21,121 nt of DNA from a virus: IMG/VR virus record IMGVR_UViG_3300005827_000047, positions 64,001-85,121 of that record, one strand, 5' to 3'. A model generated the notes under the pieces. The model was not told where the DNA came from. It ran no database searches and saw only the letters and a program-made list of their open reading frames with translations. A program made the position numbers and the translations under genes. Shown here piece by piece: positions 1,204 to 20,565 of this stretch (positions within the stretch are counted from its first letter, which is position 1; every line of letters begins with the position of its first letter).

Positions 1204-1764
1204 TTACTTAGTCCAGCAAAGAGTAACAGTAGTATCTACTTTCATCTTAACTTTAGTTACATACTTATTACCACATTCTATCATGGTTTTTTCCATATCT
1301 AAAGAGAACATATTTGCTATATCTTCTCTAGCTTCTACATTTATCTCATCATGCACTTGACCAGTTAAAAAGGCTACTTCTTCTTTATACATTAAATTAT
1401 AATGATTTATTAGGTTTCTAACGCCTATTAAAGCTTCTTTAGTAATATTAGCTCCGGAACCTTGAATTAAGTGATTTTTACCTTGCCTCTCAGCTTCTCC
1501 TTCTATAGTCAAAATAGTTTTCCAATCTTTAGAATCCTCTTTTCTTAGCTTAGCAGATTCTTTTAAATTAGGAAACCACCTTATTCTTTTACAAGGATCT
1601 TCTGTAACAGCTTTCATATCCTTTTTAGCTTTATTACCAGATTCCTTTAACCAATTCATTAAAGATGGAAAAGTTTTATCATACTTATTTAATAAGTCTT
1701 CTGCTTCCTCAATAGATATACCTAATGAATCTGCTAATTTATTAGGTCCCATACCATAACACAA
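1204..1764 (-). CDS. polA: DNA polymerase I (family A), exon 2: C-terminal polymerase part
   Basis: This is the C-terminal 186 residues of the replicative family A DNA polymerase, joined to exon 1 (2342-3670) after removal of a group I intron. Exon 2 starts LCYGMGPNKLA, the second half of motif B (O-helix). It contains motif C as GQVHDEINVE (the VHDE catalytic Asp and Glu) and ends KVDTTVTLCWTK, a normal C-terminus for the family. Joining after ...TITFG gives ITFG-LCYGMG, matching the usual FGxxYGM pattern with no change of frame. The open frame seems to extend three bases further (GTG at 1767-1765), but those bases are the intron's 3' end, not a start. The spliced protein is about 629 aa. 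Confidence 0.9.
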   Translation of the reverse strand: MCYGMGPNKLADSLGISIEEAEDLLNKYDKTFPSLMNWLKESGNKAKKDMKAVTEDPCKRIRWFPNLKESAKLRKEDSKDWKTILTIEGEAERQGKNHLIQGSGANITKEALIGVRNLINHYNLMYKEEVAFLTGQVHDEINVEAREDIANMFSLDMEKTMIECGNKYVTKVKMKVDTTVTLCWTK

Positions 1765-2341
1765 CACTAATCTATAGTTTTCACTATAGTGTGGACTATC
1801 CCTTTATGTATTTACCAGTTTTAGCATCCCTGGTACAATGGTGATTTTGATGACATTTCTTACAAAGGACTTCAAGATTATCAAGAGTATTATTACTTCT
1901 ATTTTCATCTTTGTGGTGAACTAAAATATTTAGATTACTACCACACCTTTCACAAATTTTTTCTTTTGTTGTAAAAGGAAGTTTCTTATAAAGACCTATA
2001 CCATTTTTATATTGATGATTATTTTCTCCCCACTGGTTTCCTCCTGAACCAGTCCCGGGTTTTTTAATCAATCCTTTTCTTATCTTATATAAATATGTTA
2101 AATAAGCATTTCTGCATTTTACAGAACAATACTTAGAACTACTATATTTAGTAGCCGGTATATCATCACCACATTTAATACATACTCTCCGTCTAGTCTC
2201 TACACCTTCTTGAGGGTCTTTCAAGCTTGGCTCGGGATTGTCATCAGCTTTATCTGTTAAGAGTTCCCCGAATTTGAAGAGTTTTAATTCGGCCTGTTTT
2301 TTTATTTTATTTGTATTCACAATACAAATATAGTGCATTTA
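1765..2341 (-). ncRNA. Group I self-splicing intron in the DNA polymerase gene
   Basis: The minus strand carries the conserved core elements of a group I intron. Q is AATCCCGAGCCAAGC (2239-2225), R contains AGAGACTAGACGG (2201-2189) and S is AAGGGATAGTCC (1804-1793). P7 pairs GACTA of R with TAGTC of S. P3 pairs AACTCT (2283-2278) with AGAGTA (2188-2183). P4 pairs TCGGG with CCCGA, and P6a is CTTGA/TCAAG. P1 pairs the exon end ATTCGGT (2348-2342) with the guide GCCGAAT (2293-2287), leaving the expected U-G pair at the splice site. Four bases just 5' of the guide (ACAG) can pair with the exon 2 start TTGT as P10. The last intron base is G (1765). The length is 577 nt. Splicing is inferred from structure and from the restored protein motif. 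Confidence 0.93.
1796..2338 (-). CDS. HNH homing endonuclease encoded inside the polymerase intron
   Basis: The C-terminal half has an HNH fold signature: CERCG, then VHHKDENRSNNTLDNLEVLC, then CKKCHQNHHC, with two CxxC zinc pairs, the HH-x-D pair and the Asn/His of the active site (about residues 130-168). An N-terminal zinc finger of type CIKCG...YCSVKCRNAY lies at about residues 53-80. Such proteins cut intron-less alleles and spread the intron. The most distal ATG (2338) lies 3 nt inside the intron and overlaps the in-frame TAA of unspliced exon 1 (TAAATG). The frame stays open through the whole catalytic core, and its TAG stop lies in the S element. There is no internal Met, so the true start could also be a downstream TTG or GTG. 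Free-standing HNH relatives exist in many phages. Confidence 0.88.
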   Translation of the reverse strand: MHYICIVNTNKIKKQAELKLFKFGELLTDKADDNPEPSLKDPQEGVETRRRVCIKCGDDIPATKYSSSKYCSVKCRNAYLTYLYKIRKGLIKKPGTGSGGNQWGENNHQYKNGIGLYKKLPFTTKEKICERCGSNLNILVHHKDENRSNNTLDNLEVLCKKCHQNHHCTRDAKTGKYIKG

Positions 2342-3670
2342 ACCGAATGTAATGGTTTTAGCAGCAGTTCTCTCTACCTTATCCTTCTTAGTAATAGGCT
2401 TATTAAAAAGCATAGATGCAGATATAGAATGAAGATCTTCATCATTATTCAAAGCATTTATAAATACTTCTTCACCACTTTTATCTGCCATTAAGCAAAG
2501 CTCTTGACCACTATAGTCGCACCCTATCCATAAATATCCTTCTCTAGCTTCAAAACAACTTCTAAACTCTTTAGTAGCTGGTATATTTTGCATATTAGGT
2601 GCATTATCCTCCTTATTACCAGAAGATAATCTACCGGTAGATACTATTTGCCAAAACGAAGTATGTACTTTATTAGTATTGGGGTTTACATATTTTAAAA
2701 AAGATTCTCCATAAGTAGAAGCTATTTTAGCTTTAGCTCTAAATTCTTGTAACTTAGATATAAATATATGCAGATCTTTATTCTTCTGAAGAGTTCTATC
2801 TTGAGTATCATCTTCAGGTACTCCTAAAGCTTTTAGTATTTTTAATATTTGACTGGGAGACTCATAGTTTATGTTTACTCTCCTTCTTTCTTCTCCAAAT
2901 AAATCAGACTGCACATATTTAGGTACAAAAGAAGCTAACAAAGGCTCATTTAATACTATAGAATCAAGATCATTACTTATCTCTTGCATATCTAGAAAAT
3001 TCTTAGAAGCATTAGATAACCATTTATCTTTATTTAAATAAACACCATTATACTCAATATCTCCTAAAGCTTTAACTACCTCATTTTCAAGATCCAAACA
3101 ATAATTAAGATTGTACTTATTAATAAGATCCATTTGCTTTTCTCTGATTAGATGAAGATAAGCAACATCTTTAGCAGCATAATCTATCATATAATCAGTA
3201 TAAGGTACTCCATAAGGATAATTATAAAATCCCCCTCTATCATCTTTAGAAAGATGAATATCTAAATATCTAGCTGTTAATTTATCTAATCCATATCCCC
3301 AACTTTCATATCCGGCATAAATTATACACTCAGCCAGCATAGTATCATAAATCTTGTTAAGTAAAATACCTTTATGCTTTAGAAACTTATAGTCAAATTT
3401 AGAATTATGAAGTAAACAAACTCTACTTTCTAAAACTTCTTTAAAGATTCTTATATCTATCTGTCTAGTATCTATAACCCATTGAGTATCCTTATCTCCT
3501 ATTTGCAAACAAACTATTTCTTTAGTATGAGGATCTTTACCCCTAGTTTCTGTATCAACAGCTATTTCTTCTTTATCTTTTACCCAAGTAAAGAAGTCTT
3601 CTAAAGTCTTTTTCTCATAAGCTCCTTGTATTAAAGAATCATAAGTATCTATTAAATACACCATATCCAA
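2342..3670 (-). CDS. polA: DNA polymerase I (family A), exon 1: 3'-5' exonuclease and N-terminal polymerase part
   Basis: Replicative phage DNA polymerase, 443 residues in this exon. The 3'-5' proofreading domain shows Exo I (AVDTETRG, about residues 36-43), Exo II (LLHNSKFDYKFLKH, about 86-99) and Exo III (YAAKDVAYLHL, about 163-173). The polymerase domain follows, with motif A as GCDYSGQELCLMAD (near residue 385; the usual DYSQIELR reads DYSGQELC) and the first half of motif B as RTAAKTITFG at the exon end. The in-frame stop TAA at 2341-2339 is intronic, so unspliced RNA would yield a dead polymerase without motif C. The start ATG is at 3670, with a second ATG two codons later. It lies 12 nt from the gene upstream at 3683. 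Insertion at motif B puts the intron in the most conserved part of the enzyme. Confidence 0.93.
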
Positions 3671-7397: not shown

Positions 7398-8030
7398 CTA
7401 TAATAGCATTAGTCTATCTATCCCTAAAGCAAATCCAACTCCTCCTTCATATTCTCCTCCTCCACATATTTGCTTTTGAGATCCTAATCTATTACAACTA
7501 ATTTCAAATCCTCTACCTTCTTTATAATAATCTAATCCTCTTATTGCATCTTTATTTACAATAAGATCTTTAGATCCGGTAGATATTTCTATCATCTTTT
7601 GAGCTAAAGAGCATAAATACTCTATATAATCTTTAGTAGGATTAAGTATCTCTATTCCAAATTGAGTAAATTGTCTATACCTACCGGATTGAGGTCTTTC
7701 TCCTCTAAAACATTCTTGAATATAGTAAAGTTTAAGATCTCTATGATTCTTAAAAGTAGTAGAAGATAATCTTTGAATAACAGCAGTATATTCCGGAGCT
7801 AAACATATATCCCTATCTCCTCTATCCTTAAAGTTAAACATAAGATTATTATTCTCTTCTCCTACTTTAGAAGCAAATATTTCCTGATACTGTATAATAG
7901 GAATAATAATAGGAGTAAATCCTTCTAATTCCACAATCTTCCTCATAGAATAAAGCATATCCAGCTTATTAGTAGCTGATTCTCCTAATAATATCCTAGT
8001 TCCTCTATAGCAAGTTTCTTTTATTTCCAT
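7398..8030 (-). CDS. Miniature histidyl-tRNA synthetase-like protein (210 aa)
   Basis: A class II synthetase catalytic core of HisRS type. Motif 2 is CFRGERPQSGRYRQFTQFGI (about residues 107-126), nearly the textbook HisRS sequence. The histidine-binding block IRGLDYYKEGRGFEI (about 163-177), with the catalytic Arg of RGLDYY, is intact. CGGGEYEGG and motif 3 GFALGIDRLMLL close the protein. HisRS is usually about 420 aa; here the insertion domain between motif 2 and RGLDYY and the whole C-terminal anticodon-binding domain are missing. The catalytic residues I can check are kept, so this is a shrunken enzyme, not a decayed one. It could charge tRNA-His through the acceptor end, or make histidyl-adenylate for something else. 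Its ATG overlaps the AlaRS-like stop by 10 nt. Confidence 0.87.
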   Translation of the reverse strand: MEIKETCYRGTRILLGESATNKLDMLYSMRKIVELEGFTPIIIPIIQYQEIFASKVGEENNNLMFNFKDRGDRDICLAPEYTAVIQRLSSTTFKNHRDLKLYYIQECFRGERPQSGRYRQFTQFGIEILNPTKDYIEYLCSLAQKMIEISTGSKDLIVNKDAIRGLDYYKEGRGFEISCNRLGSQKQICGGGEYEGGVGFALGIDRLMLL

Positions 8031-8884
8031 AGGTCTTTTAAATTAATTCCATGAGTGTCATACCACCACTCTTCAGATTTATCTTTATGCTTATCCTTAA
8101 GATTATTGTACCTTAATAAGATGTTTTCTTGCCTTGTAACTTCATCTTTAAAGTATTTATGATCTATGCTGCTTCCAAGTTTATACAGCTCTCTAAGTAG
8201 CTTTCTAAGAACATATCCTTGTTTAGTATTAGAAGGAGAATACCCGGAATCTATAATCTTAGTAATAGTATCTTTAAGAATATCTTGTTTAGTAGGAATA
8301 GGATTACCTAATACTAGGTTTAATCTTTCTAATCCAAATCCTACATCTATACAATTACCTAAAGGATTAACTATATTACCTATTTCTATTCCTTTAGAGT
8401 AAAACTCAGTGCAATATCCTCCTATTTCTCCATCAGACCAATAACATTCTGGATCTGGTTTTACTTCAACATTATAGTTATCATATAGTAAATCCCAATC
8501 TTCAGATGCTGTTAATTTATCTGGATGAATAGTTACATAATCTAACTTTACTCCTAATATCTTTATAAACTCTATCCAAAACTTTATAGCATCAAATAAG
8601 TACATATCTCTAAAAGAGAATAGTCCTATCATATTAAAGTATAATAGATGACTACTATCTCCTATTTCCTCAAAATCATTCATCCTAATGCAAGGTTGAA
8701 TATTAGCTATAGTTCCTTTATAAGAAGTATCTTTAAACTTACTCTTAAATTGCTGCATTCCAGCAGGACAGAATAGAGTACTATCATCATAAGGTCTCAC
8801 AGATGATTCTATAGTAAAGGGAATATTCTTATCTGCACAATACTTTGAATACTCTTCTATTATGTTAATACTTTTAGTTTCCAT
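8021..8884 (-). CDS. Miniature alanyl-tRNA synthetase-like protein (287 aa)
   Basis: A class II synthetase core of AlaRS type. Recognisable blocks in order: STLFCPAGMQQFKSKF (motif 1 region, about residues 35-50), CIRMNDFEEIG (motif 2 start, about 65-75), YFNMIGLFSFRDMY (about 82-95; the family's FEMLGNFSFGDY, with Glu changed to Asn), CTEFYSKGIEIGNIV, and IDVGFGLERLNLVLG (motif 3, with the alanine-binding Asp). After it, SPSNTKQGYVLRKLLREL matches the 'PSNxxRGYVLRRIIRR' segment of the tRNA-recognition domain, which includes the Asn that reads the acceptor G3-U70 pair in E. coli AlaRS. Full AlaRS is about 875 aa; the rest of the recognition domain, the editing domain and C-Ala are absent. It overlaps the HisRS-like gene. 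Confidence 0.87.
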   Translation of the reverse strand: METKSINIIEEYSKYCADKNIPFTIESSVRPYDDSTLFCPAGMQQFKSKFKDTSYKGTIANIQPCIRMNDFEEIGDSSHLLYFNMIGLFSFRDMYLFDAIKFWIEFIKILGVKLDYVTIHPDKLTASEDWDLLYDNYNVEVKPDPECYWSDGEIGGYCTEFYSKGIEIGNIVNPLGNCIDVGFGLERLNLVLGNPIPTKQDILKDTITKIIDSGYSPSNTKQGYVLRKLLRELYKLGSSIDHKYFKDEVTRQENILLRYNNLKDKHKDKSEEWWYDTHGINLKDLWK

Positions 8885-8924
8885 AACTTATCTACTTTTC
8901 AATCTTTATTATCTTTTAATTAAA

Positions 8925-8953
8925 AACCTCTAGCCTCACTAACACTAGAGGTT
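8925..8953 (-). terminator. Terminator upstream of the AlaRS-like gene
   Basis: Minus-strand AACCTCTAG (8953-8945) pairs with CTAGAGGTT (8933-8925), 9 bp, followed by TTTTAATT. The loop holds TAGTGAG (8941-8935), which is complementary to CTCACTA (8990-8984) about 40 nt upstream. It lies between the TrpRS-like stop and the AlaRS-like start and would separate them or make AlaRS expression conditional. Confidence 0.72.
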
Positions 8954-8983
8954 CATAAGTGGAAAAAAATTGTATGGCGACAC

Positions 8984-9009
8984 TAGTGAGTTTAAGCATC
9001 CCTGCTTAA
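8984..9009 (-). promoter_or_regulatory. Upstream hairpin and loop-pairing strand of the AlaRS leader
   Basis: Minus-strand TTAAGC (9009-9004) and GCTTAA (8997-8992) form a 6-bp stem with loop AGGGAT. It is followed by CTCACTA (8990-8984), which can pair with the loop of the terminator at 8925-8953. Together these could act as an attenuator, but no T-box consensus or leader peptide is visible, so the signal sensed, if any, is unknown. Confidence 0.45.
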
Positions 9010-9015
9010 GTATCT

Positions 9016-9726
9016 TTATAAGAATCTACTGCTTAACCTTTCAGCTAGATGCTCTTTAAATTCTTGATTATTACCTTTATAAGGAATATCAAAGTAGTTA
9101 GCTATAGTTATAAGATTATTTAATCCTTCTGGTGTAGTAACAGCAGATTTAAGCTTACTATAATGATCATCATATATATAAAGTACATGACTATCAGGTA
9201 AAGATTTACTCATCTTTACCATAGGATTTCTGAGACTCATTACTTTATCAACATCTCCAAATTCATATTTGAACTCTTTGTTAACTCCTACTCTTTTACA
9301 AATATCATTACATAGTTCTATATGCTGAACTTGATCTCTACCTATTATAATAATATCTGGATCATTTATAATAATATCTGCTGACATAAGTACCGGATAA
9401 AGTAATAAGCCTAAATCATATTCTGAAGATTTAGCTTTATCCTTATATTGAGGCATTCTTGTAAGAGAACCTAAATTCATCTTACAACAAAGTTTAAAGA
9501 ATAGCTCTGTATATTCCGGAGTTTGATGAACTATTTTATTAGCTCCTAACTTTATTAACTCTTGTTCAGTTACTTCAGAAAAGGAATCTGTAGTTAAGGA
9601 ATGATAATTAGCTATTAGAAAGGTAACTTCATTATCTTCTTGTAATCTTAATCCTTTAGCTACGCAGCCCAAGTAATTACCTATATGAAGTTTACCTGTT
9701 GGTTGAATTCCTATTAAGTATTTCAT
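9016..9726 (-). CDS. Shortened tryptophanyl-tRNA synthetase-like protein (236 aa)
   Basis: A class I synthetase of TrpRS type. The start MKYLIGIQPTGKLHIGNYLG has the HIGH box (LHIG) in the family's typical context. DLGLLLYPVLMSADII and IGRDQVQHIELCNDICKR match the TrpRS tryptophan and tRNA-end binding blocks, and MVKMSKSLPD is the KMSKS loop. TrpRS is usually about 330 aa. Here the region after KMSKS is only about 65 aa and ends FKEHLAERLSSRFL, so most of the C-terminal helical part that reads the anticodon is gone. The frame extends upstream to a TTG at 9735; I choose the ATG at 9726 because TrpRS proteins start directly at this strand. The gene ends just before the attenuator-like region ahead of the AlaRS-like gene. 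Confidence 0.87.
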   Translation of the reverse strand: MKYLIGIQPTGKLHIGNYLGCVAKGLRLQEDNEVTFLIANYHSLTTDSFSEVTEQELIKLGANKIVHQTPEYTELFFKLCCKMNLGSLTRMPQYKDKAKSSEYDLGLLLYPVLMSADIIINDPDIIIIGRDQVQHIELCNDICKRVGVNKEFKYEFGDVDKVMSLRNPMVKMSKSLPDSHVLYIYDDHYSKLKSAVTTPEGLNNLITIANYFDIPYKGNNQEFKEHLAERLSSRFL

Positions 9727-9737
9727 AATCATCAATA

Positions 9738-14844: not shown

Positions 14845-14845
14845 G

Positions 14846-14917
14846 TGGGTATATCAGGATTCCAACCTGAGCTAAAACTTTAGAAGAGTTTTGTGCTATG
14901 CACTACACTATATACCC
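14846..14917 (-). tRNA. tRNA-Arg (anticodon UCU)
   Basis: A 72-nt cloverleaf on the minus strand. The acceptor stem GGGTATA pairs with TATACCC (7 bp) and the discriminator is A. The D-stem is GTGT/GCAC with one U-G pair. The anticodon stem AAACT/AGTTT closes the loop CTTCTAA, so the anticodon is UCU, which reads AGA/AGG. The T-stem TCAGG/CCTGA closes the loop TTGGAAT. CCA is not encoded. AGA is the favoured Arg codon in these AT-rich genes, so the tRNA likely supports phage codon use. It is flanked by hairpins on both sides (14821-14844 and 14922-14946), which may set the ends for processing. Confidence 0.9.
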
Positions 14918-16518: not shown

Positions 16519-16542
16519 AATAGTGTTGTTAAATTAGTAATC

Positions 16543-16597
16543 AATAATAAAAAACAAGCAGCCTTAGTTAATTACTCTAAGTTTGTATTTACTTGTT
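16543..16597 (-). terminator. Terminator at the 3' end of the large structured RNA
   Basis: Minus-strand AACAAG (16597-16592) pairs with CTTGTT (16558-16553), enclosing a second stem CTTAG/CTAAG, followed by TTTTATTATT. It separates the gene-free region from 16081-16518. Confidence 0.65.
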
Positions 16598-17420
16598 AGT
16601 GATTTAATTTTACGGTAGCCAGTTTACTCTGGTTCTAGGTTTTTCTTTAGTTTCTCTATAGTATTCCAACTATTGTACACTAATTGGTATAGATTAGATA
16701 ACTACAATACGCGTAGCTGCAAAGACTTTTAAAATACTTATAAAAGCATTATAGCCTATCTCTGCTTTAGGCTAATATCTTAATAAAAAACTAACTACTT
16801 CAAAGTTTACTCTTGGAATTTTCCAATAGGCTGTATCAGCATTTACTTTGTCCAATATTTAACATGAACTTAAGGTAGTTCTCCATTAGTTAAACATCTT
16901 CGTTTCCCAGCTTTGAGGGTAAAGTAGTTAGTTAAATCGATGTAAAGCAGACTAACTTTAAAAAGTTAATCTCTTCATAATAAAAAAACATTAAACTCGA
17001 TAGGGTTAGACTAAGTTCCAATATTACATGGACACCCCTATTTTCTGTTATTTTAATGTTCAAATAAATCCCTCTGCGCTTAATTGTAATATTAAGGACT
17101 TGCACCTTAAATATTCTACTTGTTACTCCTTAGCATAATTTTTTATGTAGGAGGTATATTACAATTATCTATCCTTGGGAAATAGAAATGGGCATTAATT
17201 TATTTAAAGAAAAGCCTGCAAGTATCCCTACTTAAACAGGCTCATTTTAATTTACAAAAACGCTTAACAAGCATCTTTAGACTATAGTTATAGTCAATAT
17301 CTTATAAATCCAGGTGTTTTTAAAGCTTTACCTGGGAGCTTTTGCTAGTCGACAACTTTAAAAGTAATCCAAAACAAGCTTAGCTTGATTAATCAAACGG
17401 ATACTCTTAATTGTATTTAT
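16548..17420 (-). ncRNA. Candidate large structured non-coding RNA (about 870 nt)
   Basis: No frame of useful length occurs here on either strand, in a genome that otherwise leaves almost no gaps. The minus strand shows many stems. In order: GGATTACT against AGTATCC around CAAGC/GCTTG (17405-17363); CCAGGT/ACCTGG (17335-17310); GACTAT/ATAGTC near 17290; AGCCTG/CAGGCT enclosing AAGT-AGGGAT-ACTT (17242-17213); a 12-bp stem TAATTGTAATAT/ATATTACAATTA (17167-17156 with 17092-17081); AACATTAAA/TTTAATGTT with ATAGGG/CCCTAT inside (17060-16987); TAACTTT/AAAGTTA near 16960; TAGCCTA/TAGGCTA (16774-16752); CCAATTA/TAGTTGG near 16680. It ends in a terminator. The size, phage setting and a nearby tRNA recall the GOLLD and ROOL classes, but I cannot show sequence homology. 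The 5' end is not defined. Confidence 0.65.
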
Positions 17421-17436
17421 TTATCAAGAAGTAAGA

Positions 17437-17665: not shown

Positions 17666-17908
17666 TTAGTTGTTAAAGTAATAGAATAGTCCCCAAGATA
17701 TAGAAGCTAGTAGGATTTTTAATATAATTTTATATTGACTTGATTTTAAATAAATTAAGTCAAAAGGGTGTGAATTAAACTTCTTATCAACTCCTTCTAG
17801 GTCATTTTTAAATTCGTAAATGCAGTATAATAACTTATCTATTAAGACTACTATAATATATGTAGTAAAAAATACAATGGATACCACTAATATTGTTTTT
17901 AGTATCAT
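17666..17908 (-). CDS. Membrane protein with two segments (80 aa)
   Basis: Two membrane segments are visible, about residues 3-25 (LKTILVVSIVFFTTYIIVVL) and about 60-77 (KIILKILLASISWGLFYYF). The central part is charged (FKNDLEGVDKKFNSHPFDL). No family recognised. The 90-nt gap 17909-17998 after the next gene upstream shows no further gene or clear hairpin. Confidence 0.7.
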   Translation of the reverse strand: MILKTILVVSIVFFTTYIIVVLIDKLLYCIYEFKNDLEGVDKKFNSHPFDLIYLKSSQYKIILKILLASISWGLFYYFNN

Positions 17909-18178: not shown

Positions 18179-18206
18179 ATTATTGTTTTAAGTTAACATC
18201 AAAAGA

Positions 18207-18228
18207 GTTTATACTATTCTGTATAAAC
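18207..18228. promoter_or_regulatory. Inverted-repeat operator between the leftward block and RepL
   Basis: GTTTATAC, six bases, then GTATAAAC form a perfect inverted repeat. The half-site GTATAAA is the same as in the operator at the RepL start (18463-18479). It lies just upstream of the leftward gene 17999-18178, so one protein could bind both sites and set both directions of transcription. Confidence 0.62.
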
Positions 18229-18320
18229 TTAATTTCAATCTTACTCCTCTAACCTCAATTACCCACCCAAAATAGCTCTTGAAATAGGAATAAGATTAGA
18301 TTAAGATAGATAGACTCAAT

Positions 18321-18404
18321 GATATCAAGGGTTTGAGACCTATTTTTTTGATATATATATAATCCCCCTTGATATATATGTAACCCGCCTTGATATATAT
18401 CAAG
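18321..18404. repeat. Iterons: three 21-bp spaced repeats plus an inverted half-site (putative origin)
   Basis: TTGATATATAT starts at 18348, 18369 and 18390, exactly 21 bp apart, so all copies face the same side of the helix. Units 1 and 2 end in a C-rich stretch (ATCCCCC and ACCCGCC). Unit 3 ends as a palindrome, CTTGATATATATCAAG (18389-18404). A reversed copy of the CCTTGATATC type lies at 18321-18330. Iterons next to a RepL gene suggest a replication origin or an autoregulatory site. The rest of 18229-18347 is AT-rich with no gene. Confidence 0.75.
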
Positions 18405-18433
18405 AAAATTTACATTAGTTTAGACAGAAAAAA

Positions 18434-18464
18434 TTTCAAGTACGGATTTTCTATTGTATGTTTG
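18434..18464 (+). promoter_or_regulatory. Bacteroidota-type promoter for the RepL gene
   Basis: TATGTTTG (18457-18464) matches the TAnnTTTG -7 element. TTTC (18434-18437), close to the TTTG -33 element, lies 19 nt upstream of it, the normal spacing. Transcription would start about 18469-18471, leaving only 8-10 nt before the ATG at 18479. Confidence 0.72.
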
Positions 18465-18479
18465 TATAAACTTTATACA
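18463..18479. promoter_or_regulatory. Operator overlapping the RepL promoter and start codon
   Basis: TGTATAAA, one base, TTTATACA is a perfect 17-bp inverted repeat. It begins in the last two bases of the -7 element and ends at the first base of the RepL ATG. A protein bound here would block the promoter; RepL itself is the obvious candidate. Confidence 0.68.
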
Positions 18480-18901
18480 TGAGTACAACAATATTAACCC
18501 AAGAAACTGTAGATCTTCAAACAGGAGAGATCTTTACTAAAACAGTTTTTACTAAGAATGTAGAAACTAAAGAGCAATTCATCAGAACTTATACTGAAGA
18601 TGTATTACATCTATGTAGATGCTCTGGAGCAGAAACTAGAATAGTATTAGCTCTACTACCTTACGTAGAGTATAATACTAATCAATTCTTCTTGACTAAA
18701 TCAAGGAAAGAAGATATAGGTGTTATCACAAATACTACTATGAACACTATAAACTCTTCAATATCAAGACTTATGAAGAAAAATGTAGTAATCAAACTAA
18801 GCAGTAATACCTTTATGCTTAACCCTAAACTATTCTTCTACGGAACAGATGTAGAAAGAAATAAGATATTCTCACTTGCTATAAGCTATGTACTTAAGTA
18901 A
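18479..18901 (+). CDS. repL: RepL-like replication initiator (140 aa)
   Basis: A winged-helix protein of the RepL plasmid-replication family, which also occurs in crAss-like phages. After a polar N-terminus, a helix (AETRIVLALLPYVEY, about residues 51-65) is followed by a helix-turn-helix (RKEDIGVITNTTMNTINSSI, about 76-95) and then the wing (LMKKNVVIKLSSNTFMLNPK, about 98-117), ending LFFYGTD. The ending 'x-L-NP-x-x-F-x-x-G' is typical of RepL. It has its own Bacteroidota-type promoter, an operator at the start codon and iterons upstream, which is the layout of a plasmid-style autoregulated initiator. It is the only rightward gene between 1 and 20211. Confidence 0.83.
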   Translation: MSTTILTQETVDLQTGEIFTKTVFTKNVETKEQFIRTYTEDVLHLCRCSGAETRIVLALLPYVEYNTNQFFLTKSRKEDIGVITNTTMNTINSSISRLMKKNVVIKLSSNTFMLNPKLFFYGTDVERNKIFSLAISYVLK

Positions 18902-20211: not shown

Positions 20212-20565
20212 ATGGATTTAGTTATAGGAAATAAAGAAGAATCAAAAGTAAAGGAGAATCTGTTTAGGATCTTCTCTCTATATAAAAACTTATTCTTGGT
20301 TAACAAAGATATGAGTCAAGGAGAATTACTAGAGTCTATACTTAATATAATCAATGAAGATGAGCTTATAACTCCGTACATAGTAGCAACTACTCCTACT
20401 ATAAGAGAAGGAAATGATCAAAGGATAGTAGGATATCTTATCAGAAAAGGATCTGTAGTATATACTTTTGATAGTGAAAGTAAAAACATTGAAGGTCTAT
20501 TTGGAGACCTAGCTTTACAAGTAATAATAGAATACATAAAAAATAAAAATAATGACACAAACTAA
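20212..20565 (+). CDS. Hypothetical protein, first gene of the rightward operon (117 aa)
   Basis: Not recognised. The open frame reaches upstream to 20092, but the promoter at 20163-20193 would start RNA at about 20200, so the ATG at 20212 (MDLVIGNKEESKVKENLF) is the start. The protein is soluble, alpha/beta: helices at about residues 14-28 and 34-48, then TPYIVATTPTIREGNDQRIV and GYLIRKGSVVYTFDSESKN in strands, then a final helix (FGDLALQVIIEYIKNKN). It overlaps the GroES-like gene by 14 nt, so the two are coupled. Confidence 0.78.
   Translation: MDLVIGNKEESKVKENLFRIFSLYKNLFLVNKDMSQGELLESILNIINEDELITPYIVATTPTIREGNDQRIVGYLIRKGSVVYTFDSESKNIEGLFGDLALQVIIEYIKNKNNDTN

Follow-up and report, generated by a model that had tools for sequence, protein, structure and literature searches.

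The window, by which we mean the whole 21,121-nt stretch of DNA analyzed here, runs from base 64001 to base 85121 of a virus record 85,121 bases long. The contig start and the contig end both encode one protein start, MNTESAQPKPRTAEELLNSF, suggesting that the genome is circular and nearly complete. By its major capsid protein, a match to Pfam Crass_capsid (E = 3.5e-78), the phage is crAss-like; its terminase relatives are ~48-50% identical. On the side of the genome that carries the replication genes, a gap of 918 nt sits among minus-strand genes (Table 1). A tRNA-Arg gene at 14845-14917 accounts for the tRNA that an earlier note on this DNA had placed nearby, and a GroES-like gene at 20552 lies 3.1 kb from the gap on the same strand.

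The gap is truly non-coding. It holds no ORF of at least 60 aa, the longest being 57 aa with a GTG start, and recoding of TAG or TGA fails to open a reading frame across it. The codon log-likelihood is about zero or lower in all six frames, each interrupted by 22-34 stops, vs 0.23-0.48 for nearly all neighboring genes and 0.05 for one of them (17666-17908). The earlier description of some 870 nt without genes is thus confirmed and slightly extended; across the rest of the contig there is no second gap of at least 450 nt.

The same stretch had been described as dense with RNA stems, and this is true of the stems though not of the fold as a whole. The 901-nt minus strand of the gap folds with a z of -4.6 vs its own shuffles, but coding tiles of the window fold equally well, the gap ranking about fifth among 23 tiles, and 300-nt windows within the gap stay inside the background; by the standard of this genome, the gap has an ordinary fold energy. 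Two helices are nevertheless beyond chance, both perfect over at least 12 bp and matched in 0 of 1000 shuffles: one lies in P3 of the core described below (Table 1), and the other is formed by 16922-16933/16789-16800. A proposed long-range contact between TGCAAGT and ACTTGCA carries no weight: both are present, but they make up one of 87 such 7-nt complementary pairs in the gap, and ACTTGCA already falls in a hairpin predicted at a probability of ~0.95. The terminator assigned to the 3' end is plausible as a hairpin with a U tail, but it is weak (Table 1).

Homology singles out a small part of the gap. Model R1, a covariance model of window 17058-17209 only, was scanned against 0.96 Mb of relatives. 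It matches two non-coding, minus-strand loci, L129:1958-2098 at 45.6 bits (E = 7e-7) and L093:528-632 at 34 bits (E = 3e-4); these E-values are rough, because the model had one sequence and its calibration was shortened. Inspection and a refined model add a third copy in L127, a close relative of L129, with ~190 nt extra in P3, so that the core is known from four independent sequences. The refined model, R3, scores L129 at 81, L093 at 74, the window at 64 and L127 at 35.5 bits, all four being its own training sequences; over ~100 records, covered whole or locus by locus, R3 finds no further convincing copy, and seven complete Bacteroidota phages (six of them Crassvirales) hold no copy of the core. 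A weak R3 match in genome G045 (54190) lies inside a gene and was judged to be chance. Near its contig ends, G045 has two nearly identical core copies (L093:520-640 and L156:10539-10660) with differing sequence after each; the pair would represent a second copy or else a variant introduced by assembly. Rfam, searched with the window, the gap and the relatives, offers no known family for the core, at E up to 10 for the gap and for the window and L093 cores, and a literature search for the core sequence found nothing.

Table 1. Features of the gap and of the RNA core, in window positions.
Feature	Position	Strand	Evidence or remarks
Non-coding gap	16519-17436	-	between two minus-strand genes; neighbors transcribed right to left
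Conserved pseudoknotted RNA core	17058-17209 (R1); 17062-17205 (R3)	-	homologues L129, L093, L127; covariation
P1, 5' arm	17198-17208	-	pairs with 17059-17069
Internal loop, 5' strand UAA	17195-17197	-	invariant; alignment A5
P1b, UGC	17192-17194	-	pairs with GCA 17075-17077; invariant; alignment
Hairpin P2, UCUAUUU CCCAA GGAUAGA	17168-17186	-	7 pairs, all formed in four sequences
Pseudoknot strand, P2 loop CCC	17177-17179	-	predicted to pair with GGG 17070-17072
P3, 12-bp helix 17156-17167/17081-17092 and variable tip	17081-17167	-	helix covaries, four sequences
Internal loop, 3' strand GAGGG	17070-17074	-	GGG 17070-17072 is the other putative pseudoknot strand; CAC:GUG in L127
P1, 3' arm	17059-17069	-	pairs with 17198-17208
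Orphan multibranch domain	16789-16933	-	closed by 14-bp helix (12 bp perfect); helix beyond chance; no homologue
Weak terminator-like hairpin with U tail	16553-16597	-	-7.6 kcal/mol; sequence

Read 5' to 3', the core consists of P1, UAA, UGC, CCA and a short linker, hairpin P2, P3, AGY, GCA, GA, GGG and P1'. Comparison of the aligned copies shows a three-way junction, made up of P1, the UAA/GAGGG internal loop, P1b, P2 and P3, that a pseudoknot joining the P2 loop to GAGGG is predicted to lock. Among the four sequences, double changes affect six of the eight counted pairs of P1, which L093 does not form, and four of the seven pairs of P2. Two invariant U-G pairs form the end of the P2 stem. 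The change of CCC:GGG to CAC:GUG in L127 is the only double change that supports the pseudoknot. The tip of P3 is unconserved: in the window it forms two hairpins, one with a UGCAAGU loop (17098-17104), and elsewhere it measures ~40-200 nt.

Alignment A5 comprises all four sequences and was trimmed manually, with the variable tips taken out and N put in for gaps. In it 95% of the cells pair and both sides change in 17 of 31 pairs, a result reached by 0 of 500 shuffles; slid controls give 1-4. For the unedited three-sequence alignment A6, RNAalifold returns the same fold with 15 double-changed pairs, beating shuffles and slid controls in a test that had one pseudoknot pair in the wrong column (helix 4), an error that does not touch the other helices. 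The core pattern finds 0 matches in 2.9 Mb of composition-shuffled loci. Folded singly, the window, L129 and L127 sequences adopt the same core, and L093 forms P2 and P3; the corresponding z values are -3.1, -5.4, -6.7 and, for L093, -0.3, the last no better than shuffles. Since the core recurs with matched base changes in three distantly related phages, it represents a real RNA family outside Rfam. The earlier note had envisaged a structured, non-coding, minus-strand RNA, possibly of a new class, that covariation among homologues could support; for the ~150-nt core, both the structure and the covariation in four sequences are borne out.

These changes bear directly on the prosaic view that the gap is what remains of a lost gene, or a DNA control region, with stems that arose by chance. 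Most of the gap is without a homologue, its fold energy is ordinary, and an ATG-TAA 32 nt after the core looks as though a gene had been lost; no coding signal is left in any frame, however, and the core covaries in four phages. For 17058-17209 this view is contradicted by the alignments, and for the gap as a whole we consider it very improbable.

Could the core be one domain of something much larger? The most ambitious proposal for this locus is one ornate RNA of ~850-900 nt that ends at the terminator at 16553 and functions like GOLLD. GOLLD RNAs are made as one transcript of ~800 nt or more. They form a closed multimeric cage, a 14-mer (PMC12286853). The window gap resembles GOLLD in being a long non-coding region on the phage early strand with a tRNA in the neighborhood, and ROOL resembles the window RNA in its phage setting and as a multi-stem RNA with a pseudoknot. 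The earlier note had drawn both parallels and named the covariance models that would address them; neither model matches. At E up to 10, the GOLLD model (RF02032), which covers the conserved 3' region and has a gathering score of 150 bits, finds nothing in the gap or the whole genome, and the gap matches no Rfam family at all. The ROOL model (RF03087, 574 positions) likewise has no match in the gap or the genome, in a genome-wide scan that by itself has no positive control because the control genomes lack ROOL. The conserved part of ROOL is ~580 nt long vs ~150 nt in the window.

The proposal nonetheless gains from three relatives of the phage. Loci L101, L122 and L130 have a ~900-nt conserved non-coding stretch on the minus strand, ~3 kb from a GroES-like gene, in which Rfam identifies true GOLLD RNAs at 212-225 bits (L101:3550-3949, L122:3843-4212 and L130:2857-3243, minus strand). 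With GOLLD in this region and on this strand in three relatives, a large RNA would not be out of place in the gap. The position is similar, but the immediate flanking genes of the GOLLD loci differ from those of the gap, so the two are only a corresponding region and not a proven orthologous position. The three GOLLDs and the window gap share no detectable sequence, and R1 and R2, the latter modeled on the 16789-16933 domain, give chance scores only on the GOLLD-bearing loci even with filters off. Unlike GOLLD, the window lacks the conserved 3'-domain segments of L122 as a set, and its conserved core has a different fold. Whatever lies in the gap, the GOLLDs of these relatives provide an additional phage group in which to study that RNA.

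The remainder of the gap gives the proposal little help. For the ~750 nt beyond the core no homologue was found: the R2 scan detected none of the 16789-16933 domain, and blastn with the gap returned no match among phages and plasmids and chance matches only in the records of neighbor-protein and terminase relatives. Neighboring genes were also tried as handles to homologous loci. The DUF7296 protein led to unrelated phages only, AlaRS to other phages without the RNA, and the membrane, SSB-like and GroES-like proteins had no match. DNA patterns were derived from the T-loop-like hairpin and from the 3' domain; they gave three and 83 matches, respectively, at chance level and none homologous, and neither pattern found any in the genome collection. 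These ~750 nt are non-coding and, being without a homologue, leave a giant RNA spanning the whole gap unproven. Its length, the second 12-bp helix beyond chance and the weak terminator speak for one; the gap's ordinary fold energy, the absence of a match to the GOLLD and ROOL models and the differing GOLLD flanking genes speak against it, as does the finding that three relatives have the core by itself, in an element of 120-260 nt. We regard a single GOLLD-like RNA as unlikely. The earlier claim of one giant RNA of 870 nt is unsupported, since homologues cover 17058-17209 only and R2 found nothing, and is further weakened by the small size of the homologous elements elsewhere.

In the other three copies, the end of P1 lies ahead of an ATG, by 25 nt in L129, 20 nt in L127 and 24 nt in L093. 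The genes that follow show no sequence relation to one another; that of L129 encodes a product matching PHROG 16527, of unknown function. In L127 and L129 the core closely follows a stop codon, which places it within a cluster of genes. Downstream of the window core, an ATG comes after 32 nt and is followed at once by TAA, and the next gene is more than 500 nt away. Two further stretches are seen in these core-bearing relatives: GTCCTACNNNTTCAAAGACCCC is conserved ahead of a small gene (L093 1039, L127 3176, L129 2992, minus strand), and AAGTGAYTGATTA lies further on from it. Both are absent from the window genome and are possibly promoter or leader signals.

We consider it probable (about 0.6) that 17058-17209 on the minus strand is an unclassified structured RNA of crAss-like phages that acts in cis on its transcript, through control or cleavage. 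The core would be transcribed together with the early minus-strand genes, as the neighboring genes run the same way. It would then act as a compact folded unit in cis, in a leader or between genes, since the copies stand directly before or between genes, and would either control or cleave the transcript. Such action would not be gene-specific, given that the downstream genes differ: a position 20-25 nt before unrelated start codons suits action on the transcript itself rather than the control of one pathway. The favored and single most likely mechanism is that the pseudoknotted core would serve in the processing of RNA or in leader control. Several points count against this explanation: unlike in the relatives, no gene follows the window core for more than 500 nt; the family comprises four sequences, one of which (L093) lacks P1, with a pseudoknot inferred from one double change; and R3 was built from its own matches and A5 edited by hand.

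Alternatively, the core could control phage early genes, as a leader riboswitch or as an element bound by protein. Its distance from the start codons in the three relatives fits this well, but the genes it would control are mutually unrelated and the window copy has no gene for more than 500 nt after it, which leaves such an element somewhat unlikely. A self-cleaving ribozyme of a new class, with UUAAUGC possibly cut at its U/A step, is conceivable because the layout of the core resembles that of twister. Self-cleavage next to a conserved adenosine defines the twister ribozyme. In the core, invariant strands face each other across a small internal loop and appear to be joined by a loop-to-internal-loop pseudoknot, there is a U-A step in the loop, and the downstream genes are unrelated. 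The twister layout likewise uses a loop-to-internal-loop pseudoknot to bring invariant strands together (PMC5408937). Both would have a P1, an asymmetric internal loop with a UA step, an inner helix, an optional variable arm and a hairpin loop that pairs with the internal loop, a pairing that in the core is supported by one compensatory change. Twister has a second pseudoknot, and the core is likened to it by layout only, not by loop sequences. No Rfam ribozyme model matches the window gap, the window core or the L093 core at E up to 10, and we hold self-cleavage of this kind to be improbable. Still less likely, in our estimate, is a new crAss-like phage ribozyme class in the early transcript whose variable third arm has grown into, or become joined to, a 900-nt non-coding RNA. 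The UGCAAGU hairpin was considered as a twister L4 and dropped: the other three copies lack it.

Whichever way it acts, the core offers assays of ribozyme or regulatory activity a small object, 150 nt long, that can be tested directly. Few structured RNAs were found described in the literature for Crassvirales, which rank among the most abundant phages known; here is a covarying, putatively pseudoknotted family outside Rfam, in phages whose terminases share about half of their residues.

Some other features of the genome deserve mention. Alanyl-, histidyl- and tryptophanyl-tRNA synthetase-like genes lie at window 7398-9735, the first two being short. A possible replication origin is seen at 18179-18478, where repeats of CTTGATATATAT precede a RepL-like gene (18479-18901). 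The DNA polymerase A gene (1204-3670, minus strand) is interrupted at its FG/LCYGMG motif by ~580 nt that contain an HNH-like ORF (1796-2338). Motifs GACCCTCAAGAAGGTGTAGAGACTA and GATAGTCC around this ORF look like a group I intron with a core overlapping the ORF, and Rfam made no group I intron call at the split. Elsewhere in this genome, outside the window, a group I intron does score above the Rfam cut-off, at 76 bits (G000:C1:62578-62899, minus strand, L290).
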